Source: Ruminococcus flavefaciens (lineage in GTDB: Bacteria; Bacteroidota; Bacteroidia; Bacteroidales; P3). From it: a DNA stretch of 32,738 bases. Below are positions 2,918 through 10,557 of this stretch, one piece after another (position 1 is the stretch's first letter; every line of letters starts with the position of its first letter). Below the pieces are notes generated by a model. The model made no database searches and was not told the origin of the DNA. It saw nothing but the letters and a program-made list of their open reading frames with translations. Where the stretch lies: contig JAMPAI010000018.1 of assembly GCA_023667315.1 (NCBI GenBank), positions 1-32,738 on the forward strand. Reading direction: 5' to 3'. A program made the translations under genes and the position numbers.

Positions 2918-3451
2918 TTAATGAAACATCCAATAAGGAAATACTCCTCCGGGGAATGGATCATATCTGAATTCATCTTTTGGAAATGTTTCATCAATCT
3001 TACTACTTCTACCTTCAGGATTATAATATGTACACGGATTGTTTATCATTACATCAATAGTAACAATGTTCGTAAGTTCGCGATTCCCACTGTTAGAATC
3101 TGTTATTCCGCGAATAACAAAGACCAACATCCTCGAATCGGTAGCATACAAACGGCGTAAAAGTTGTCCAGCAGAATTATTTTCGTTCCAATAGAACGTC
3201 ATCTCGAGTTCACTTGGTTGTACATTTGTATTCAGCTTAAGCTCCGTAATGGTAAACACAGCCCGGTCAAGATGTATTGTCATTACATCGTCAAGGGTTG
3301 TAAATTTAAAAGCATCATCTCTGTATTCACCGAATAACATACCACGTTGTAGTTCAGTTTGTAGTACCTTGTTTGACTGAATACATTCGAAAACTTTTTC
3401 AGCACTGAACATCCATGGAATATCGACTTTGGTCACAATGAGTTCTGGCAT
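2918..3451 (-). CDS. Hypothetical protein
   Basis: 177 residues from ATG 3451 (MPELIVTKVD), preceded by AAAGGATGG at a suitable distance; a longer frame starting at 3469 lacks a ribosome site. Mostly beta-like sequence (VFTITELKLNTNV, SELEMTFYWNEN, RMLVFVIRGITDS, TNIVTIDVMI) with an aromatic C-terminus (DPFPGGVFPYWMFH). No motif recognised. It lies between the terminator of the large multi-enzyme gene and the promoter of the MazG-like gene, so it may form a short unit of its own. Confidence 0.65.
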   Translation of the reverse strand: MPELIVTKVDIPWMFSAEKVFECIQSNKVLQTELQRGMLFGEYRDDAFKFTTLDDVMTIHLDRAVFTITELKLNTNVQPSELEMTFYWNENNSAGQLLRRLYATDSRMLVFVIRGITDSNSGNRELTNIVTIDVMINNPCTYYNPEGRSSKIDETFPKDEFRYDPFPGGVFPYWMFH

Positions 3452-3499
3452 AATAAACCATCCTTTCACTCTACTAAATCATTGTTGCTTGCCTACTCA

Positions 3500-3550: not shown

Positions 3551-6500
3551 TTAAGTGAGAGCAGTAATCATAGTCTTACCGATAGCAGTAATGACTTTCT
3601 GAGGGATCGTGAGGTTCTTTCCGTATTTGCTGGAATCATAACCAGATTGGAAATTCCATCTCGGATCCCTAGTGGTAACGTACTTGAGATGCTGTTGGAA
3701 TGCGTTGAGCATCACAGACCGGAGGTCAAGCATATCCTTACGGACTTCACGTGCATTGGACTTCAAGTTCTTCACATCAGGCCGCAAGTAATATCGATTG
3801 ATCAGCTCGACCATATAATGGATCTTATATAACTCTTCCTTCACACCTTCAACATTTCCAGCATTTTCACATGCTTTGATTGTTTTCAGAGAGCTACGGA
3901 AGTGTGTATCCAGCTGATCGAACTCACGTCTTGTCACCACAATGTTGCCATCTTTATCAAACCGAAGTTTGAACGATTGCAGGTATGTGATGAAATCATT
4001 GACAGCAGCCTCATCCATCATGGTAAGTTGATAATTCAGAACTTGATGTGCCCACGGATTATCGAGGGCAACATCGAGAACACCCTCATCGAGCTTCTTT
4101 GCACGGAGAATCATCTTGACCTTTTTATCAACTGTTTTCGGGTTATAGTTAGCGGCCAATCCACTGTCGACAAACTGTGCAAATCCAGCAGACTTAAAAT
4201 CTTCAGGACGATACAGCGACGGTTGATCGATCAGCTTCTTATCCGGCGATCCGGCATTCAAGATGTCAGCAACAAAGCGCGAACAGAACCAGGTATTCTC
4301 CGGATTATCGGGGATCTTGAAGAAGTTCTTAATCAACCCGAGGTAATCGAACCGGAACTTGGTTTCGTTCTTAATGAAATACTCCAGCCGCTTCTGCATA
4401 CGCTTAACGGCACCCTTCGTACTCGGGACAACATACACCGCATAGGGAATCTTGTTCTTGGTATAGAATTCGCTCTTGATATTCTCAAGTTTGAATCCAC
4501 CAATCAAAGCCTCGATTTTGTTCTCCAGATCTTTTCCTGCGAATGAGTACATTTTGGTCAGACTGGAATCAAAGCTTATCGATGCATGCGTGAATTCGGA
4601 GTGTGTCAGTCCACGAATCGCTGCCGATATGGGGGAGTTCCCGTTGATCAGCACAACGAAGACGGGACTCGGTGTCTTCTCATCCGAAGAGGATTCATCA
4701 ATACGATCGAAGAACTGTACCCGATCAAGCATCTCAAATCGATAGGTATGAGAGCTTTCATCGAGCGATGCATTCTCATAGTCCCGATGATTGTTAAACA
4801 TGCGAACTCGATCACCACGCTGCGCATCATGCTCGGTGAAGATGTCATCAATATATGCAGCATCAGAACCATCGACGGCATCAGCTTCCTCATTCTTTAC
4901 GCCAGGGAGATGAGACTTTACCTTCTTGATGATTCGATTCCGCTTCTGCGTACGACGGCCTTTTGCCAGCGCTTTGTTACGAGCTTCGCGTTTTCGTTCA
5001 AGTTCTTTTTCTTTCTCGAGTTTTGCCTTCTCGGCCTCTTTGCGCTTACGCTCTTTTTCATCAGCCTCTTCAGCTTCATGGGTATCGCCGACTGCCTGTA
5101 GTCCGTACTTCTTGGCTATGTCGGCCTTCTGTTCACGATCAACCGGATGGGTATCAGCTACAGCTTCGCTAACAGGTTCTTCAACGAGTTTCCCGTTGTG
5201 TTTGGGTTTTGTCCTCATAACGAGCATCGTTACACGGAAATCCTCAAAATAGCCGTCCTTCTTGAATCCAAACCGTTCATACATTTTCAGTGCAGGCACG
5301 TTATCACTTTCTACACAGAGCTCCGTAGGGTTGTACATCCGCATGAGATACCGCATGATAGCGTTCCCATACTTCTTCCCACGATAGCGAGGATAAACCT
5401 CAATATTGTACAGATACGGCTCTTTGGTGTCTATTCCGCTGACAGAAGCTTCGCCGATTTTAACGTGCTTATCATTGAAGAACTTGATGTCAACAGCTTT
5501 CTTAGACTTCCAATCATTCGGATTCTCGCTCTCGGTCACACGAGCAGTGATCTTCGGCCAATAAACTTCAGGAGAGTCAGCACTGAATGCTTCAATCCCC
5601 ATGAGATCGATATACGCACCGACAAAATCTTCAGCCTCGGCGTTGATCCTCGTGATATATGCGAACTTTTTGAACTCAGGGTCTTTCTTGATTGCATCAC
5701 AAAGATGCTTCACCAGGTCCCAATACGATGCTATCTGATTGACTGTTGCGTTGTCGGTATTGAGATCGGCCAGTGTGAACATGATCTGGTTATCGTTACC
5801 ATGATCAAGCCTTGGTTTAAGCTTTGGGGGTTCACCGGCATTGGGATTTTCTTTCTTCCATTTTGCTCGAATGGTGTCGAAGTACTTGTCTTTCTTATTG
5901 AACTCACGACAATACTTATTAAACATCCGAATCATGAAGTCCTGAGCATCCTCATATGCCATTTCGTGAATGATCTTAGGATCAGGAACATCCAGAGTTT
6001 TCTCGAACTTATACTGATCATTACCAGGAGGAGTTATATCTCGGAAACCATTCCTCAAAGCAAGATTGCGACTTGCAACATTGTCAAGATCGCACCTCCA
6101 AAGAAGGGTTTTAATGCCAATGGTCGGACACTCTTTGGAAGCTTGATTGATCAGATAGTCGGTAAGACCGTGTCCCCGTCCGTTTGGTGTAGCAGCGATA
6201 ACGACAATACCCACATCAGGATTATCATCAAATGCATACACCTCAATGAATGCTGCACCACCGTTGCGTCTGCGCTCTTTAGTAATGGCCCGATACACAA
6301 CATTTGGTGAGTCTTTAAACTGATCATCATGGTAGAAATAGTGATGCTCTTCCTTTGGAATTGCATCGACGATTCGTTTTATCTCAGCGAACGTCGCATG
6401 AAGCAGTTTGGTCTTTTGTATTTTTCCAGTGGTTTCGTTTACGATATACTCAACCCCACCACATTTATCGGTCATACTCGACCATGCAAATTCATACTCC

Positions 6501-8335
6501 CAGTCATATAGTGTGGCAGTATGTTCATTATTTTTGCCATAGGTATACTTATAGCCCTTACCTTTGGCAGGACCACTGACTTCAATTTTTGCAACTTTAT
6601 CCAACCAGATAGGCTGACATATCCAACGCTCTTCAGTAATCTCTACATCAGGCACCTGTTCTTTAGTAGGTGTAATTACCTTGAATTTTGGTTTACGATC
6701 ACCAGTCTGAACCGGTGTATAGACATATAACTTACTACCTGTCAGATCCATCGATAGTGCGCGCAATGCTTTTCCAATACTCGTACTGAAACAGATTCTT
6801 GGTGTTGTGTTATCTTCAAACCCGTTTTTCGTCATGAAATTCTCAGGGACATCAGGTTCGATAAGAAACTCGTCAAGCTCATCAGATTCAGAGACGAAAA
6901 TAAGTGGATCTATCGCTTGTCTTGCAGCTTCATCAATAGCAGCAACAGACTTCTCAGACTCTTCGCCCTTCTCAGCTTGTTCACGATACTCTTTGTCGTC
7001 CTTCAGCCAGTACTTGGTATCATCGACATCCTTGAACAAAACTTCGTCGATGATATCGGTCGATTCAACCATACTGGAAAGTTCAACCTTCTTTACACGG
7101 CCGGGCTTTTTGTACTCATGGTGCAAACATTTTCCGCCGCCCATAACGTAATCCATGTACTCCTGACAGTGCATGCCGAACAAAGCATGGTCAAGGGCAT
7201 TATACTCCCAGGCATCATATCCCCATTTCTTGAGCAAATCTCCTTTCGGGATAGACGGATCTGGATTATCGGACATGAGTTTCAGAACAAAGTTGATGAT
7301 ATCCTCTTCGCTCTTTGCTTCATACAGACCTGCGAACTTTCGGAAAGAGCACTCGAAGTAGTAATGCTTTCCACTCCATTCGAATGTGAGAATTGTATGA
7401 GACGGACAGTCAGCTCCATTAAAGAACTGCATATAGTAGGTCTTTACGGGAACATTCGGGAAATGCTCTTTGAAGTACTGTGCCTCATAAGAGACATAAT
7501 CCCAGCATACACCAACCTTCGATTTCGCAATCTCTTCCGGAGACTGCACGACGAGATATCTATCCCAATCATCTGACGTTGTGTTACGTTTCGGATCCCA
7601 TTTCCCGTTGATGCGAAGACCATAGCGGAAATTCTTATCCATCCACGTATTAAAATTGTAGATATCACGGAGGATCCTATCTGTGGTGACTGTCTCATCG
7701 ATAGGTTCATCCTCAGGAGGACATAGTGGGAACCAATCACTGATGTCCATAATTTTTGTATACTGATCGTTTTCGAGACTGGTGTACTTCTCAAACTTCT
7801 CAGTAACATGTGCCAGCTCTTTACTGGTATACTCATGCTCTTGCACGATTGCGGACTTCAAAAGATCCTCCAGAAGAACCGGATGATCATCTTTATTCCA
7901 GTTTGCTGCATACGCATTGATGTGGTTCCAGCCCATAGTAACAAGCTTCTCGGTGTGAAGGTGTCCATGAACGTTCACTTCGTCGGCAGCAACTTTAATG
8001 GGTTTATGCGAGAAAATAATATTGTAGAGTCGAATCACTTCAGTGACTTCGTCGAACCCTACACGCAGATAAAATTCGTCATCCTGAAGGTCGTGATTGC
8101 CACGACACATCAATTTCCGACACGGAATACGCTGCACGATGGCAGCGAGCTTATCGGTATCTGTTACATCAGGATCACAGAGGTCACCCAGGAAGATGAG
8201 CAAATCATCTTCCTGGATGTCCTGAGCGAACTGATCAGACAGTTTGCCAATATTGTGTCGGGAACGGAACGGATGACGGGAATCATTATCACGACTATAC
8301 AAATGAAGATCAGTCGCAATCCAGATGTTCCCCAT
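3551..8335 (-). CDS. 1594-residue multi-enzyme protein: phosphoesterase, transglutaminase-like, 2x GNAT, papain-like amidase
   Basis: ATG 8335 follows GAGGAGG. Domains in order: (1) residues 1-150, calcineurin-type metallophosphoesterase with all motifs: DLH (9-11), GDLCD (50-54), GNHD (79-82), H110, GHLH (124-127). (2) About 225-345, transglutaminase-like fold with GVCWDY (Cys277), CPSHT (His313) and YFECSF (acid at 328). (3) About 675-780, GNAT acetyltransferase (GRGHGL, then NVASRNLALRNGF). (4) About 945-1045, a second GNAT (YRGKKYGNAI, then NVPALKMYERFGF). (5) About 1085-1140, highly charged coiled coil. (6) About 1220-1385, permuted NlpC/P60 or YiiX-type papain-like amidase (FTHASI His1250, WFCSRFVADI Cys1351). 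Residues 1400-1594 are helical and unassigned. The active-site residues look intact, so this is not decay. By analogy with polyvalent proteins of phages and conjugative elements, it may be delivered with the DNA to modify host or defence components; cleavage into parts is possible. The function of the whole is inferred. Confidence 0.8.
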   Translation of the reverse strand: MGNIWIATDLHLYSRDNDSRHPFRSRHNIGKLSDQFAQDIQEDDLLIFLGDLCDPDVTDTDKLAAIVQRIPCRKLMCRGNHDLQDDEFYLRVGFDEVTEVIRLYNIIFSHKPIKVAADEVNVHGHLHTEKLVTMGWNHINAYAANWNKDDHPVLLEDLLKSAIVQEHEYTSKELAHVTEKFEKYTSLENDQYTKIMDISDWFPLCPPEDEPIDETVTTDRILRDIYNFNTWMDKNFRYGLRINGKWDPKRNTTSDDWDRYLVVQSPEEIAKSKVGVCWDYVSYEAQYFKEHFPNVPVKTYYMQFFNGADCPSHTILTFEWSGKHYYFECSFRKFAGLYEAKSEEDIINFVLKLMSDNPDPSIPKGDLLKKWGYDAWEYNALDHALFGMHCQEYMDYVMGGGKCLHHEYKKPGRVKKVELSSMVESTDIIDEVLFKDVDDTKYWLKDDKEYREQAEKGEESEKSVAAIDEAARQAIDPLIFVSESDELDEFLIEPDVPENFMTKNGFEDNTTPRICFSTSIGKALRALSMDLTGSKLYVYTPVQTGDRKPKFKVITPTKEQVPDVEITEERWICQPIWLDKVAKIEVSGPAKGKGYKYTYGKNNEHTATLYDWEYEFAWSSMTDKCGGVEYIVNETTGKIQKTKLLHATFAEIKRIVDAIPKEEHHYFYHDDQFKDSPNVVYRAITKERRRNGGAAFIEVYAFDDNPDVGIVVIAATPNGRGHGLTDYLINQASKECPTIGIKTLLWRCDLDNVASRNLALRNGFRDITPPGNDQYKFEKTLDVPDPKIIHEMAYEDAQDFMIRMFNKYCREFNKKDKYFDTIRAKWKKENPNAGEPPKLKPRLDHGNDNQIMFTLADLNTDNATVNQIASYWDLVKHLCDAIKKDPEFKKFAYITRINAEAEDFVGAYIDLMGIEAFSADSPEVYWPKITARVTESENPNDWKSKKAVDIKFFNDKHVKIGEASVSGIDTKEPYLYNIEVYPRYRGKKYGNAIMRYLMRMYNPTELCVESDNVPALKMYERFGFKKDGYFEDFRVTMLVMRTKPKHNGKLVEEPVSEAVADTHPVDREQKADIAKKYGLQAVGDTHEAEEADEKERKRKEAEKAKLEKEKELERKREARNKALAKGRRTQKRNRIIKKVKSHLPGVKNEEADAVDGSDAAYIDDIFTEHDAQRGDRVRMFNNHRDYENASLDESSHTYRFEMLDRVQFFDRIDESSSDEKTPSPVFVVLINGNSPISAAIRGLTHSEFTHASISFDSSLTKMYSFAGKDLENKIEALIGGFKLENIKSEFYTKNKIPYAVYVVPSTKGAVKRMQKRLEYFIKNETKFRFDYLGLIKNFFKIPDNPENTWFCSRFVADILNAGSPDKKLIDQPSLYRPEDFKSAGFAQFVDSGLAANYNPKTVDKKVKMILRAKKLDEGVLDVALDNPWAHQVLNYQLTMMDEAAVNDFITYLQSFKLRFDKDGNIVVTRREFDQLDTHFRSSLKTIKACENAGNVEGVKEELYKIHYMVELINRYYLRPDVKNLKSNAREVRKDMLDLRSVMLNAFQQHLKYVTTRDPRWNFQSGYDSSKYGKNLTIPQKVITAIGKTMITALT

Positions 8336-8694: not shown

Positions 8695-10557
8695 TTACAG
8701 CACGGAATCGTGCGGTGTATAGTCGGGCTCCTGCTGCTTTTTCTTGTTGGGTCCAAGTTCAGCATCATCGAGAACGCTGTGATCAATTCCTTGTACATAG
8801 TCGAGACGCTTATACCAAGGATTCGTTACGCTTTGCCCAGTCTTCGCAACACTTGTGCCGTCATCAGCAACAGCCGTGTCACCCTCTAATAGCAGATGAG
8901 CCATGTGATCGACAATAGTTTTATCGGCATAGGGCGCATACGGATGGTCGACAGAGATGGCAAAGTCACAGCCGAACTCACGATACTTCTGGTTCAGCCG
9001 TTTTACGTATGTCGGCTTGTCAGCATCGGGGATCTTCCAAATCATATCCATTGCAAGTCGGATCGATGTTTTATCCACAATCGGATACTCCAACGTATCA
9101 GGCAGAAGGAATAGATCATCAGACATGCCGAGATCCTTCACAAGGTAAGCCGAACACTGTTCCTTACTGACGATCTCACCAGGCACATTAGCCTCGTTCA
9201 TGTTGATAACCATGCTGCGAACAGAAGCCATCGTATGAACCATCGAAATGATGTTTGTAGAGATTATCGACTCATCAGCAGGGTTATCAGTGCAAGACCA
9301 GAAGAGATCCCACAGATACTGCATCTGACGGTGCTGTTCTTTGCTGTCAGGTTCAGCATCAAGATACAGATCGTAGTGATACTGCACATGATGTTTCCAA
9401 TCTGCCAAGATTCCATAATGGTACGGTGTCAAGCTGACTTCCGGATCAAAGTTAGGATCCTGTACAATTTCACCCATGACACTGTACAGCCGCATACAGT
9501 AGAAGTTGTGGTACACGTCGTCGGCGAGGCTCACATGGAACCAATTGCACTCTTCATTGTAATTGGCATCACAAAGAATCTCGGCAATATTGTCACGATC
9601 GTCTTCGGTCTCAGTCGTTGCTTGGCCCAACGGTTTGTCGAAGTCCAGACATTGTGGTGCGCGGATCCCAAGAAAATGATACATCGTACCGGCAGCATTA
9701 GCACTTGCCATCCCACCACAGACACTCTGTAACCGTACTTGGAATGCCATACGATAAAGATCCGGATGGAAGTAATCAAGGAACGTGAACTCTTTCAATG
9801 CTTTAATGGATCGTGCAAAATCAAACCCATAAAATACATTGTTGTAGAAATTCCGATTCATCCGAAGATGCTCAGCAATGACATCGGCCTTTGTGCGTTT
9901 ATTCATAGGTGTCCCAAGACCTGAAAGGACAAAGCGCGGATACTCTTTCGTCTCTCGAAGCGCTTCCGGAGCGTACTCATAAAGCGCATTGCTTTTACCA
10001 ATTTTTGTCGTAACATTGAACTTCTCCATTGCTTTGAAGATATTCTTAGCGAGTGTTTCACGGTCCTTCGGGTCCTTGCAATGACCAAACATCCGAATCG
10101 CCTGTTGCACGTGCGCTTTATCATTCAACGGATACTGACGTGTACGAGGAAGTCCGAATACATCATCGGGCAAAGCATTACGCTTTTTACTCTTCAGTGC
10201 AGTTTCGTTGAAGTAATCCAAAATAGAAGACGCAAACGGATCATCTTCCGTGTCTTCAGGTGTTTCAGATTCTGTGTCGAGTGTAGAGATCTGGCTTGCG
10301 CTATGGCGCTCCAGATCAATCTGTCGATGATGTACTTTGCTGATAGGAGACCCATGGTCAGCGAAGTTAGGGTTATACCCCTCATTCTGTGGTTCCATGG
10401 TTTGCGTTTCTGTATTTTCGGCCGGTGTCACATCACCGGGTGTTTCAGCTTCACCGTGAATAAGCGGCTCATCTGCAGCGTCAACATCAATGCGTTGAAG
10501 CATCGTCTGTCTGGGTTTAATCACCGCGCATTGATGATTACTGATCATACGAGACAT
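8695..10557 (-). CDS. 620-residue protein with a duplicated DUF6582-like domain
   Basis: ATG 10557 lies 3 nt after the stop of the upstream gene, whose last codons contain GGAGGAAGGAG. Residues 1-110 are polar and disordered-looking. Two copies of one motif are visible: near residue 130 (DDVFGLPRTRQYPLNDKAHVQQAIRMF) and near residue 485 (DDLFLLPDTLEYPIVDKTSIRLAMDM), each followed by about 25 residues ending in an I/L-x5-6-F/Y helix. The pattern LP-x-T-x2-YP-x2-DK-x-V/I-x2-A resembles the small LPxxxxYP helical domain (DUF6582-type) appended to phage head-maturation and other virion proteins. The middle part (about 230-440) is rich in aromatic residues and His (YHYGILADWKHHVQYHYDLYL). A virion or assembly role is plausible but not proved. 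The C-terminal 50 residues are again polar. Confidence 0.7.
   Translation of the reverse strand: MSRMISNHQCAVIKPRQTMLQRIDVDAADEPLIHGEAETPGDVTPAENTETQTMEPQNEGYNPNFADHGSPISKVHHRQIDLERHSASQISTLDTESETPEDTEDDPFASSILDYFNETALKSKKRNALPDDVFGLPRTRQYPLNDKAHVQQAIRMFGHCKDPKDRETLAKNIFKAMEKFNVTTKIGKSNALYEYAPEALRETKEYPRFVLSGLGTPMNKRTKADVIAEHLRMNRNFYNNVFYGFDFARSIKALKEFTFLDYFHPDLYRMAFQVRLQSVCGGMASANAAGTMYHFLGIRAPQCLDFDKPLGQATTETEDDRDNIAEILCDANYNEECNWFHVSLADDVYHNFYCMRLYSVMGEIVQDPNFDPEVSLTPYHYGILADWKHHVQYHYDLYLDAEPDSKEQHRQMQYLWDLFWSCTDNPADESIISTNIISMVHTMASVRSMVINMNEANVPGEIVSKEQCSAYLVKDLGMSDDLFLLPDTLEYPIVDKTSIRLAMDMIWKIPDADKPTYVKRLNQKYREFGCDFAISVDHPYAPYADKTIVDHMAHLLLEGDTAVADDGTSVAKTGQSVTNPWYKRLDYVQGIDHSVLDDAELGPNKKKQQEPDYTPHDSVL

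Follow-up and report, generated by a model that had tools for sequence, protein, structure and literature searches.

The DNA analysed here (the window, 32,738 bp) is an entire contig, C9, of a 2.93-Mb bin of 88 contigs (G000). Its minus strand carries a single open reading frame (ORF) of 1594 codons, P0001, which starts with an ATG, has an AGGAGG 9 nt 5' of it and matches exactly the span given by the original prediction, an earlier annotation of this DNA made from its letters. Genes for RNA polymerase beta-type subunits (phrog_2986, E 2.5e-67; phrog_3015, E 1.6e-36) are also present on the contig together with an SbcC-like gene and a DNA helicase gene, and because of these genes the contig is assigned to a jumbo phage. 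A second phage contig of the bin, C66 (125 kb), is collinear with C9 and has a match for 15 of the 30 C9 ORFs in our ORF set; its capsid protein is distantly akin to the capsids of AR9/PBS1 and of Staphylococcus jumbo phages (17 records). Judged from sequence, C9 belongs to a jumbo phage that is distantly akin to AR9/PBS1. The counterpart of P0001 on C66 is 53% identical to it across residues 785–1593, and the two contigs appear as related yet distinct jumbo phages in one metagenome-assembled genome, C9 being a fragment.

P0001 consists of several modules joined in one chain (Table 1). The N-terminal metallophosphoesterase (MPE) matches Pfam Metallophos over residues 3–164 (E 7e-9), and D9, H11, D51, N80, H81, H110, H125 and H127, which we take to provide its metal ligands, are kept in all five aligned relatives; the catalytic roles given below to residues of the transglutaminase-like (TG) and papain-type modules are likewise our assumption. 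For the TG module, both the DUF553 match (residues 223–286, E 0.0023) and the Transglut_core match of a relative, P0004 (E 6e-4), lie below cut-off; in an alignment judged by eye the Cys is kept in three of the four domain-bearing proteins and the His in all four. In the relative P0005 (L034 6218-11233) the catalytic Cys appears by eye to be lost from the corresponding region (residues ~215-345), with His and Glu kept. The phage domain which follows has a motif that is also visible by eye in a further relative, L074. Pfam Acetyltransf_1 (E 5e-16) matches two stretches of P0001, the best being 959–1024, and GNAT 1 is additionally indicated by Acetyltransf_3 (682–765, E 4e-5, just below cut-off) and by NF040503 (715–767, sub-threshold). 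The conserved core between the two acetyltransferases is 61–67% identical in P0002 and P0003; neither P0004 nor P0005 has a match to it.

The papain-like domain matches phrog_1128 over residues 1209–1379 (E 2e-10). H1250 and C1351 are invariant in all six aligned sequences, and their order, His before Cys, fits a permuted NlpC/P60 fold (YiiX/YaeF-like) in all six, as the catalytic Cys of such folds lies close to the C-terminal end of the domain, behind the His (PMC3142127; this and the other PMC records are cited here from excerpts). Foldseek comparison of its model, which is moderate in quality (mean pLDDT 57), returned 2if6 (YiiX) with a probability of 1.00 and 3kw0 with 0.82-0.92, at E-values of 0.01-0.28, and no match at E 0.001. 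A solved-structure sequence search with the papain-like and the helical C-terminal domain (CTD) gave nothing useful. The CTD forms the C-terminus throughout the family, and hidden Markov model (HMM) matches to it are also found in the more distant L057, L061, L065 and L067, and weakly in L074. All five modules named by the original prediction (phosphoesterase, transglutaminase-like, two acetyltransferases and papain-like) are thus supported by Pfam, PHROG and Foldseek, and, the TG Cys of P0005 apart, the putative catalytic residues of the MPE, TG and papain-like modules are kept in the aligned relatives, in line with its remark that the active sites look intact; the domain at ~483–610, the core and the CTD had been overlooked. 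The linkers described there as low-complexity are so at residues 1087–1140 and not clearly so elsewhere.

Table 1. Features of the P0001 locus; positions are those of the window and residue numbers those of P0001.
Feature	Position	Strand	Support
P0001 gene, putative polyprotein, 1594 aa	3551..8335	(-)	ORF, translation, relatives, ribosome site
Metallophosphoesterase (MPE), residues 1-165	7841..8335	(-)	Pfam Metallophos, phrog_547, invariant putative metal ligands
Candidate site IDE/T, MPE/TG border	7691..7702	(-)	same-type sites at 206-207 in P0002-P0005
Transglutaminase-like (TG), residues ~215-430	7046..7693	(-)	DUF553, Transglut_core in P0004, alignment A10
Candidate site IDE/A	6926..6937	(-)	motif scan
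Candidate site VSE/S	6884..6895	(-)	motif scan
Phage domain, residues ~483-610	6506..6889	(-)	phrog_5043 0.0017, phrog_10766 0.0085
GNAT 1, residues ~640-785	5981..6418	(-)	Acetyltransf_3, NF040503
Conserved core, residues 787-930	5546..5977	(-)	alignment with P0002, P0003
GNAT 2 (RimI-like), residues ~940-1045	5201..5518	(-)	Pfam; TIGR01575 rimI E 4e-10, below cut-off
Candidate site VSE/A, before Lys-rich helix	5162..5173	(-)	aligned with LEES, INED, INEA, INED
Lys/Glu/Arg-rich helix, residues 1087-1140	4916..5077	(-)	sequence, model
Candidate site LDE/S, before papain-like domain	4754..4765	(-)	LKES, LAES, IQES, VNET near in relatives
Candidate site IDE/S, before papain-like domain	4691..4702	(-)	six rows of alignment A9: IDES, LNEA, INES, INES, INES, IDES
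Papain-like domain, probably permuted NlpC/P60 (YiiX-type), residues 1220-1400	4136..4678	(-)	phrog_1128, Foldseek, H1250/C1351
Candidate site LDE/G, papain/CTD border	4082..4093	(-)	VQES, LSES, FNET, VTES near in relatives
Helical C-terminal domain (CTD), residues 1417-1594	3554..4087	(-)	alignment A9, HMM matches
Conserved upstream partner, 620 aa, DUF6582-like	8695..10557	(-)	PF20223 2e-4, sub-threshold; synteny
Conserved upstream Zn-finger endonuclease, 417 aa	10561..11814	(-)	phrog_15137 4e-35; AR9 orthologue

Relatives were collected by alignment-based scans of viral contigs (for one MPE scan, the best 80 of 153), and L057-L067 from the papain-bearing scan and L074-L078 from new MPE loci were read as ORFs. 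Besides P0001, the long proteins of the family are P0002 (1364 aa, on C66), P0003 (2029 aa), P0004 (1087 aa, identical in four contigs), P0005 (1672 aa) and, more distantly related, L074 (2033 aa); the contigs of the relatives reach 231, 260 and 288 kb. Scans with P0001 alone and a two-sequence alignment against genome contigs returned no relatives. With tblastn, the whole of P0001 matched 59 phage records, the 40 listed ones over the MPE part only, and no match to the papain-like domain of P0005 was found in phage records; six of 297 host genomes matched, besides G000 over the GNAT domain only. Because single-ORF relatives exist in five other phages and P0004 is identical in four contigs, P0001 is not an assembly artefact, and a chimera was rejected. 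Homologues with separate genes, which had been named as the sign of such an artefact, were encountered only among distant phages, where modules are split and re-fused, while the fusion is kept in the six long proteins.

All six long proteins begin with the MPE and end with the CTD (weak in L074, HMM E 0.0045), and the modules between these ends vary. P0002 has a P-loop kinase-like module (sub-threshold) at the place of the TG, and its first GNAT is akin to GNAT 2. Two further modules are present in P0003, one of P-loop type and one resembling Gln_amidase/Tox-PL (PF15644, E 2e-4, sub-threshold), and P0004 has no match to the core or to either GNAT. An SNF2 helicase is embedded in L074 (9001-15102, E 6e-18), in which no papain HMM match was found at E 0.01. 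As far as these alignments go, the ends of the long relatives are constant and the middle is exchangeable. In the distant L057 (7924-9573), L061 (7735-9987) and L066 (8083-9540), the papain-like domain is fused to a Zn-finger endonuclease: the N-terminal parts of these ORFs match the endonuclease of the window (phmmer E 2e-36 to 5e-50). In L057 and L061 the CTD terminates a separate protein, which in L061 (653 aa) starts with the domain of the 620-aa neighbour of P0001 (E 3e-18); in L065 and L067, kinase-like modules come after the papain-like domain. The endonuclease/papain and 620-aa/CTD fusions therefore indicate that neighbouring genes trade modules.

A second property of the family is a short motif, [LIVM]-x-E-[S/A], which is repeated in the linkers, resembles the target of T4-type prohead proteases and is enriched about four- to five-fold by sequence count. 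In P0001-P0005, [LIVM]xES occurs 32 times against 6.6 expected, a count reached in none of 2000 shuffles, and for [LIVM]xE[SA] there are 46 occurrences where 13.0 are expected. Five control motifs remain at chance in the same proteins, variants of the motif centred on D, K, Q or N are not raised, and the remaining C66 ORFs contain 34 [LIVM]xES against 34.0 expected. Counted per Glu, the motif is present 39 times for 662 residues in the six polyproteins and 34 times for 2279 in the C66 background. Enrichment was also ranked over 212 ORFs (minimum length 100 aa) taken from C66, C9 and flanking sequence of L021, L034, L035 and L074; these greedily made ORF sets include some false frames. The five other polyproteins take ranks 1-5, and P0001 takes rank 8 (Poisson p 0.013, uncorrected). 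Taken alone, P0001 has 11 sites of the L/I-x-E type against 4.1 expected (reached in 4 of 2000 shuffles) and 5 ES sites against 1.4, and L074 has 7 ES sites against 2.0. ES enrichment is clear only in L059 and L062 among eleven distant papain-bearing ORFs.

Alignments reveal that the candidate sites recur at corresponding borders between modules across the relatives (Table 1). The first [LIVM]xE[SAT] site of P0001 is at residue 212; the chain opens straight in the MPE fold, and a short N-terminal capsid-targeting leader of T4 type, with a terminal cleavage site, is not present in it. In the modelled C-terminal half, where 323 of 809 residues are below pLDDT 50, the 10-residue blocks around six [LIVM]xE[SA] sites have mean values of 50, 65, 34, 28, 30 and 34. 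Low values around the sites are consistent with linkers in the model, though not decisive.

The same motif is observed in the head genes of these phages. Near the capsid gene of C66 (phrog_20655, E 3e-23) lies a protease gene with a match to PF03420 S77, the T4 gp21 family (E 7e-4). Orthologues are encoded by the phages of P0004 (58%), P0005 (52%) and L074 (48%), and a distant copy by that of L036 (27%). The C-terminal tails of all four close copies (phages of P0002, P0004, P0005 and L074) contain TM[QS]E[SA] and LL[TSD]ES, both absent from the distant copy, and three capsid proteins share two such sites within their N-terminal 105 residues, I[VC]NES around residue 28 and [ML][NS]ES around residue 102, just N-terminal to the conserved part. 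T4 gp21 cuts after L/I-X-E (PMC9026906), and SPN3US gp245 cuts after A-X-E, favouring Ser at the following position, and cleaves its own C-terminus (PMC10052503); the excerpts of PMC4870245 and PMC10638138 contain nothing on cleavage sites. Because the tail and capsid motifs match and such specificities are reported for gp21 and gp245, the linker sites resemble substrates of this S77-like protease.

Two other observations concern this gene set. On C66 (36103-38110) and in relatives in L038, L041 and L042, the genes lying between those for protease and capsid protein open with short leaders that have [ML]xEA at their ends and resemble the capsid-targeting leaders of T4; over all C66 ORFs, short N-terminal LxE leaders are in weak excess (8 of 121 against 4.4 expected). 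In the window, the minus-strand gene at 2918-3469 (183 aa), just downstream of P0001, was considered as prohead protease (phrog_3014, 3e-4; S80, 0.0025) and rejected: convincing His/Ser motifs were not seen by eye, phage records gave one relative only, at E 3, and the better, S77-like protease adjoins the C66 capsid gene. The gene could be a decayed paralogue of prohead peptidases.

We consider it fairly probable that P0001 is a head-packaged polyvalent effector precursor which is processed by the prohead protease. Under this reading, the precursor would be expressed late and drawn into the prohead, most likely via the CTD and/or the basic helix, the CTD being the most constant candidate for head targeting. 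The S77-like protease would cut the linkers after [L/I/V/M]-x-E, in most cases with Ser or Ala as the next residue, during capsid maturation, and the freed enzymes would be injected with the DNA and modify host proteins or signals. Packaging and shared functions might reside in the constant ends, and the middle might act as an exchangeable cargo bay. The suggestion of the original prediction that the protein is polyvalent or a processed polyprotein is partly supported, by the module exchange between constant ends and by prohead-protease-type sites with flat controls, and its delivery as a host-takeover agent is plausible. A stronger proposal, which we hold tentatively and rate somewhat below an even chance, is that the clade possesses a true polyprotein delivery system, in which a C-terminal packaging domain and prohead-protease sites would define an exchangeable cargo cassette (esterase, cross-linker, kinase, deamidase, acetyltransferase, helicase) and one protease would couple capsid maturation to effector arming, as a DNA-phage counterpart of RNA-virus polyproteins.

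Several points weigh against processing in the head. In the phage of C9 no protease or capsid gene was found, the bin having only those of C66, and none was found for the protease in the 30.6-kb record of P0003; the P0002 gene is ~60 kb away from the C66 capsid gene, and the protease and TG matches are under curated cut-offs. The p-value of P0001 would fail correction for 212 ORFs. For nine of the eleven distant papain-bearing ORFs, the ES count is equalled or exceeded by 38 or more of 500 shuffles, and no site occurs in L075-L078, the four relatives with the MPE only. IGEA 960 of P0001 lies within a GNAT strand, and in L074 LDES 724 lies in an apparent helicase DExH box (by eye) and IGES 40 in the MPE; being in folded parts, these three are likely to be chance occurrences. 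In the C-terminal half, the sites could not be told apart from other positions by a conservation-flank test (values of 0.12 to 0.61 for site flanks, with 0.36 as the mean overall), and the model of residues 1–800 is unusable (mean pLDDT 34), so that the linkers there lack structural definition. Most head proteins of SPN3US are uncleaved (PMC5694885, PMC10052503), and virion proteomics, mass spectrometry or cleavage data for such phages were not found.

If cleavage did not occur, P0001 might be injected as one chain like the N4 virion RNA polymerase, with the Glu-Ser sites being incidental to linkers that are abundant in charged and polar residues; some polyvalent proteins do travel full-length (Iyer 2017, PMC5512222). 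We regard this as unlikely, as whole-protein composition shuffles and the D, K, Q and N controls fail to reproduce the enrichment and the same motif is present in the N-terminal part of capsid proteins and in the protease tail. A multi-enzyme complex acting within the infected cell and never entering the virion would agree with the distance of the gene from the C66 capsid gene, with its position beside replication and transcription genes, and with the annotated early promoters of the AR9 stretch downstream of the orthologous endonuclease. The motif enrichment and a 20.6-kb locus in which papain-bearing P0006 and a capsid gene occur together argue against such a complex and make it improbable.

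Self-processing by the embedded papain-like (or TG-like) domain appears slightly more improbable still. Release through embedded peptidases has been proposed for polyvalent proteins (Iyer 2017, PMC5512222), and the invariance of H1250 and C1351 would suit it. Self-cleavage is disfavoured because L074 keeps the enrichment with no detectable papain-like domain, and capsid proteins contain the motif too. Moreover, we know of no Glu-specific endopeptidase among YiiX-type folds. The least probable alternative, to which we give very little weight, is a tail-associated cell-wall enzyme formed by the NlpC/P60 domain and linkers, with the remaining domains as passengers. The acetyltransferases, kinase-like modules and helicase of this family would depend on cofactors of the cytoplasm. 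The papain-like domain is moreover probably of the permuted YiiX type and undetected in L074, and these points stand against the tail association that is sometimes seen for jumbo-phage NlpC/P60 proteins (PMC7824862).

Of the neighbouring genes, the 620-aa partner is homologous to a 641-aa ORF of L034 (E 1e-133). Its family (window 8695-10557, minus strand; L034 215-2140; L021 5139-7025) has [LIVM]xES sites and holds ranks 6, the L034 orthologue, and 10 among the 212 ORFs, and it may be a protease substrate as well. Elsewhere on C66 (117783-120226; L013 7784-10227), a Cys-rich 272-aa ORF is followed by a small ORF and then by a gene for a protein of 433 aa, in which a radical-SAM-like CxxxCxxC motif is visible by eye; the Cys-rich ORF and this protein might constitute a jumbo-phage pair for peptide modification.

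A multi-enzyme precursor with swappable cargo between constant ends, which a prohead protease encoded apart from it would cut at numerous internal positions, did not turn up in our search of open-access literature. Nor did that search, which included the main text of Iyer 2017, find an equivalent of the domain order of P0001, in agreement with the earlier remark that none was known. If the favoured reading is true, capsid maturation would be coupled to the release of injected effectors, and [LIVM]xE/S at linkers together with the CTD would provide a sequence rule for packaged cargo in uncultured jumbo phages. Such a rule could guide genome mining to counter-defence enzymes, and a modular loading of giant capsids with proteins would be suggested.

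Comparison with known systems places P0001 between several of them. Like the polyvalent proteins (Iyer 2017, PMC5512222), which are predicted to be co-delivered with DNA and to shuffle modules, it unites numerous enzyme domains of unrelated kinds, RimI-like GNATs among them, in a single chain: P0001 combines diverse domains in one mobile-element polypeptide with conflict-type catalytic domains (GNAT, twice), and the kinase-like and deamidase-like modules of its relatives are sub-threshold matches. It differs from them in its constant ends with a shared CTD, in its predicted processing by a separate prohead protease instead of an embedded peptidase, and in the zincin MPTase and ArdC-N hub domains (common, though not required, in polyvalent proteins), for which no Pfam match at E 1 was found in P0001 among the 10 families listed. 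The words calcineurin, transglutaminase and papain-like are absent from the main text of Iyer 2017. The internal proteins of T4 are packaged in the head and processed by gp21 after L/I-X-E, and Alt is an injected host-modifying enzyme (PMC9026906). However, the injected proteins of T4 are separate genes with terminal propeptides, and it is core proteins such as gp22 that are cut into several fragments, whereas P0001 combines several enzymes in one putative precursor, in which the candidate sites are internal and a short N-terminal leader is absent.

Giant phages package, and partly process, ejection proteins (PMC5694885). The inner-body and ejection proteins of phiKZ and SPN3US are jumbo-phage proteins cut after x-x-E, with Ser preferred next in SPN3US, but they lose propeptides, no multi-enzyme precursor is described in the excerpts of PMC10052503 and PMC5694885, and the motif is A-X-E (SPN3US) or S-X-E (phiKZ sites) in contrast to L/I/V-X-E in the P0001 family. 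In P1, DarA, DarB and DdrB are head-located antirestriction proteins, some of them proteolytically processed (sources including PMC5512222), and DarB is targeted via its N-terminus. AR9/PBS1 encodes a capsid protein homologous to that of C66 (24%, E 1e-13) and an orthologous Zn-finger endonuclease. The arrangement of C66, with the protease gene upstream of the capsid gene and on the other strand, is found in AR9 too, where the gene is annotated as prohead protease, and LKES, LSEA and LQES are visible by eye in the first 90 residues of the AR9 capsid protein. Unlike C9, AR9 has no phrog_1128 papain-like match and has unnamed genes downstream of the endonuclease. By analogy with these systems, P0001 might work like a polyvalent protein joined to the internal-protein processing of T4.

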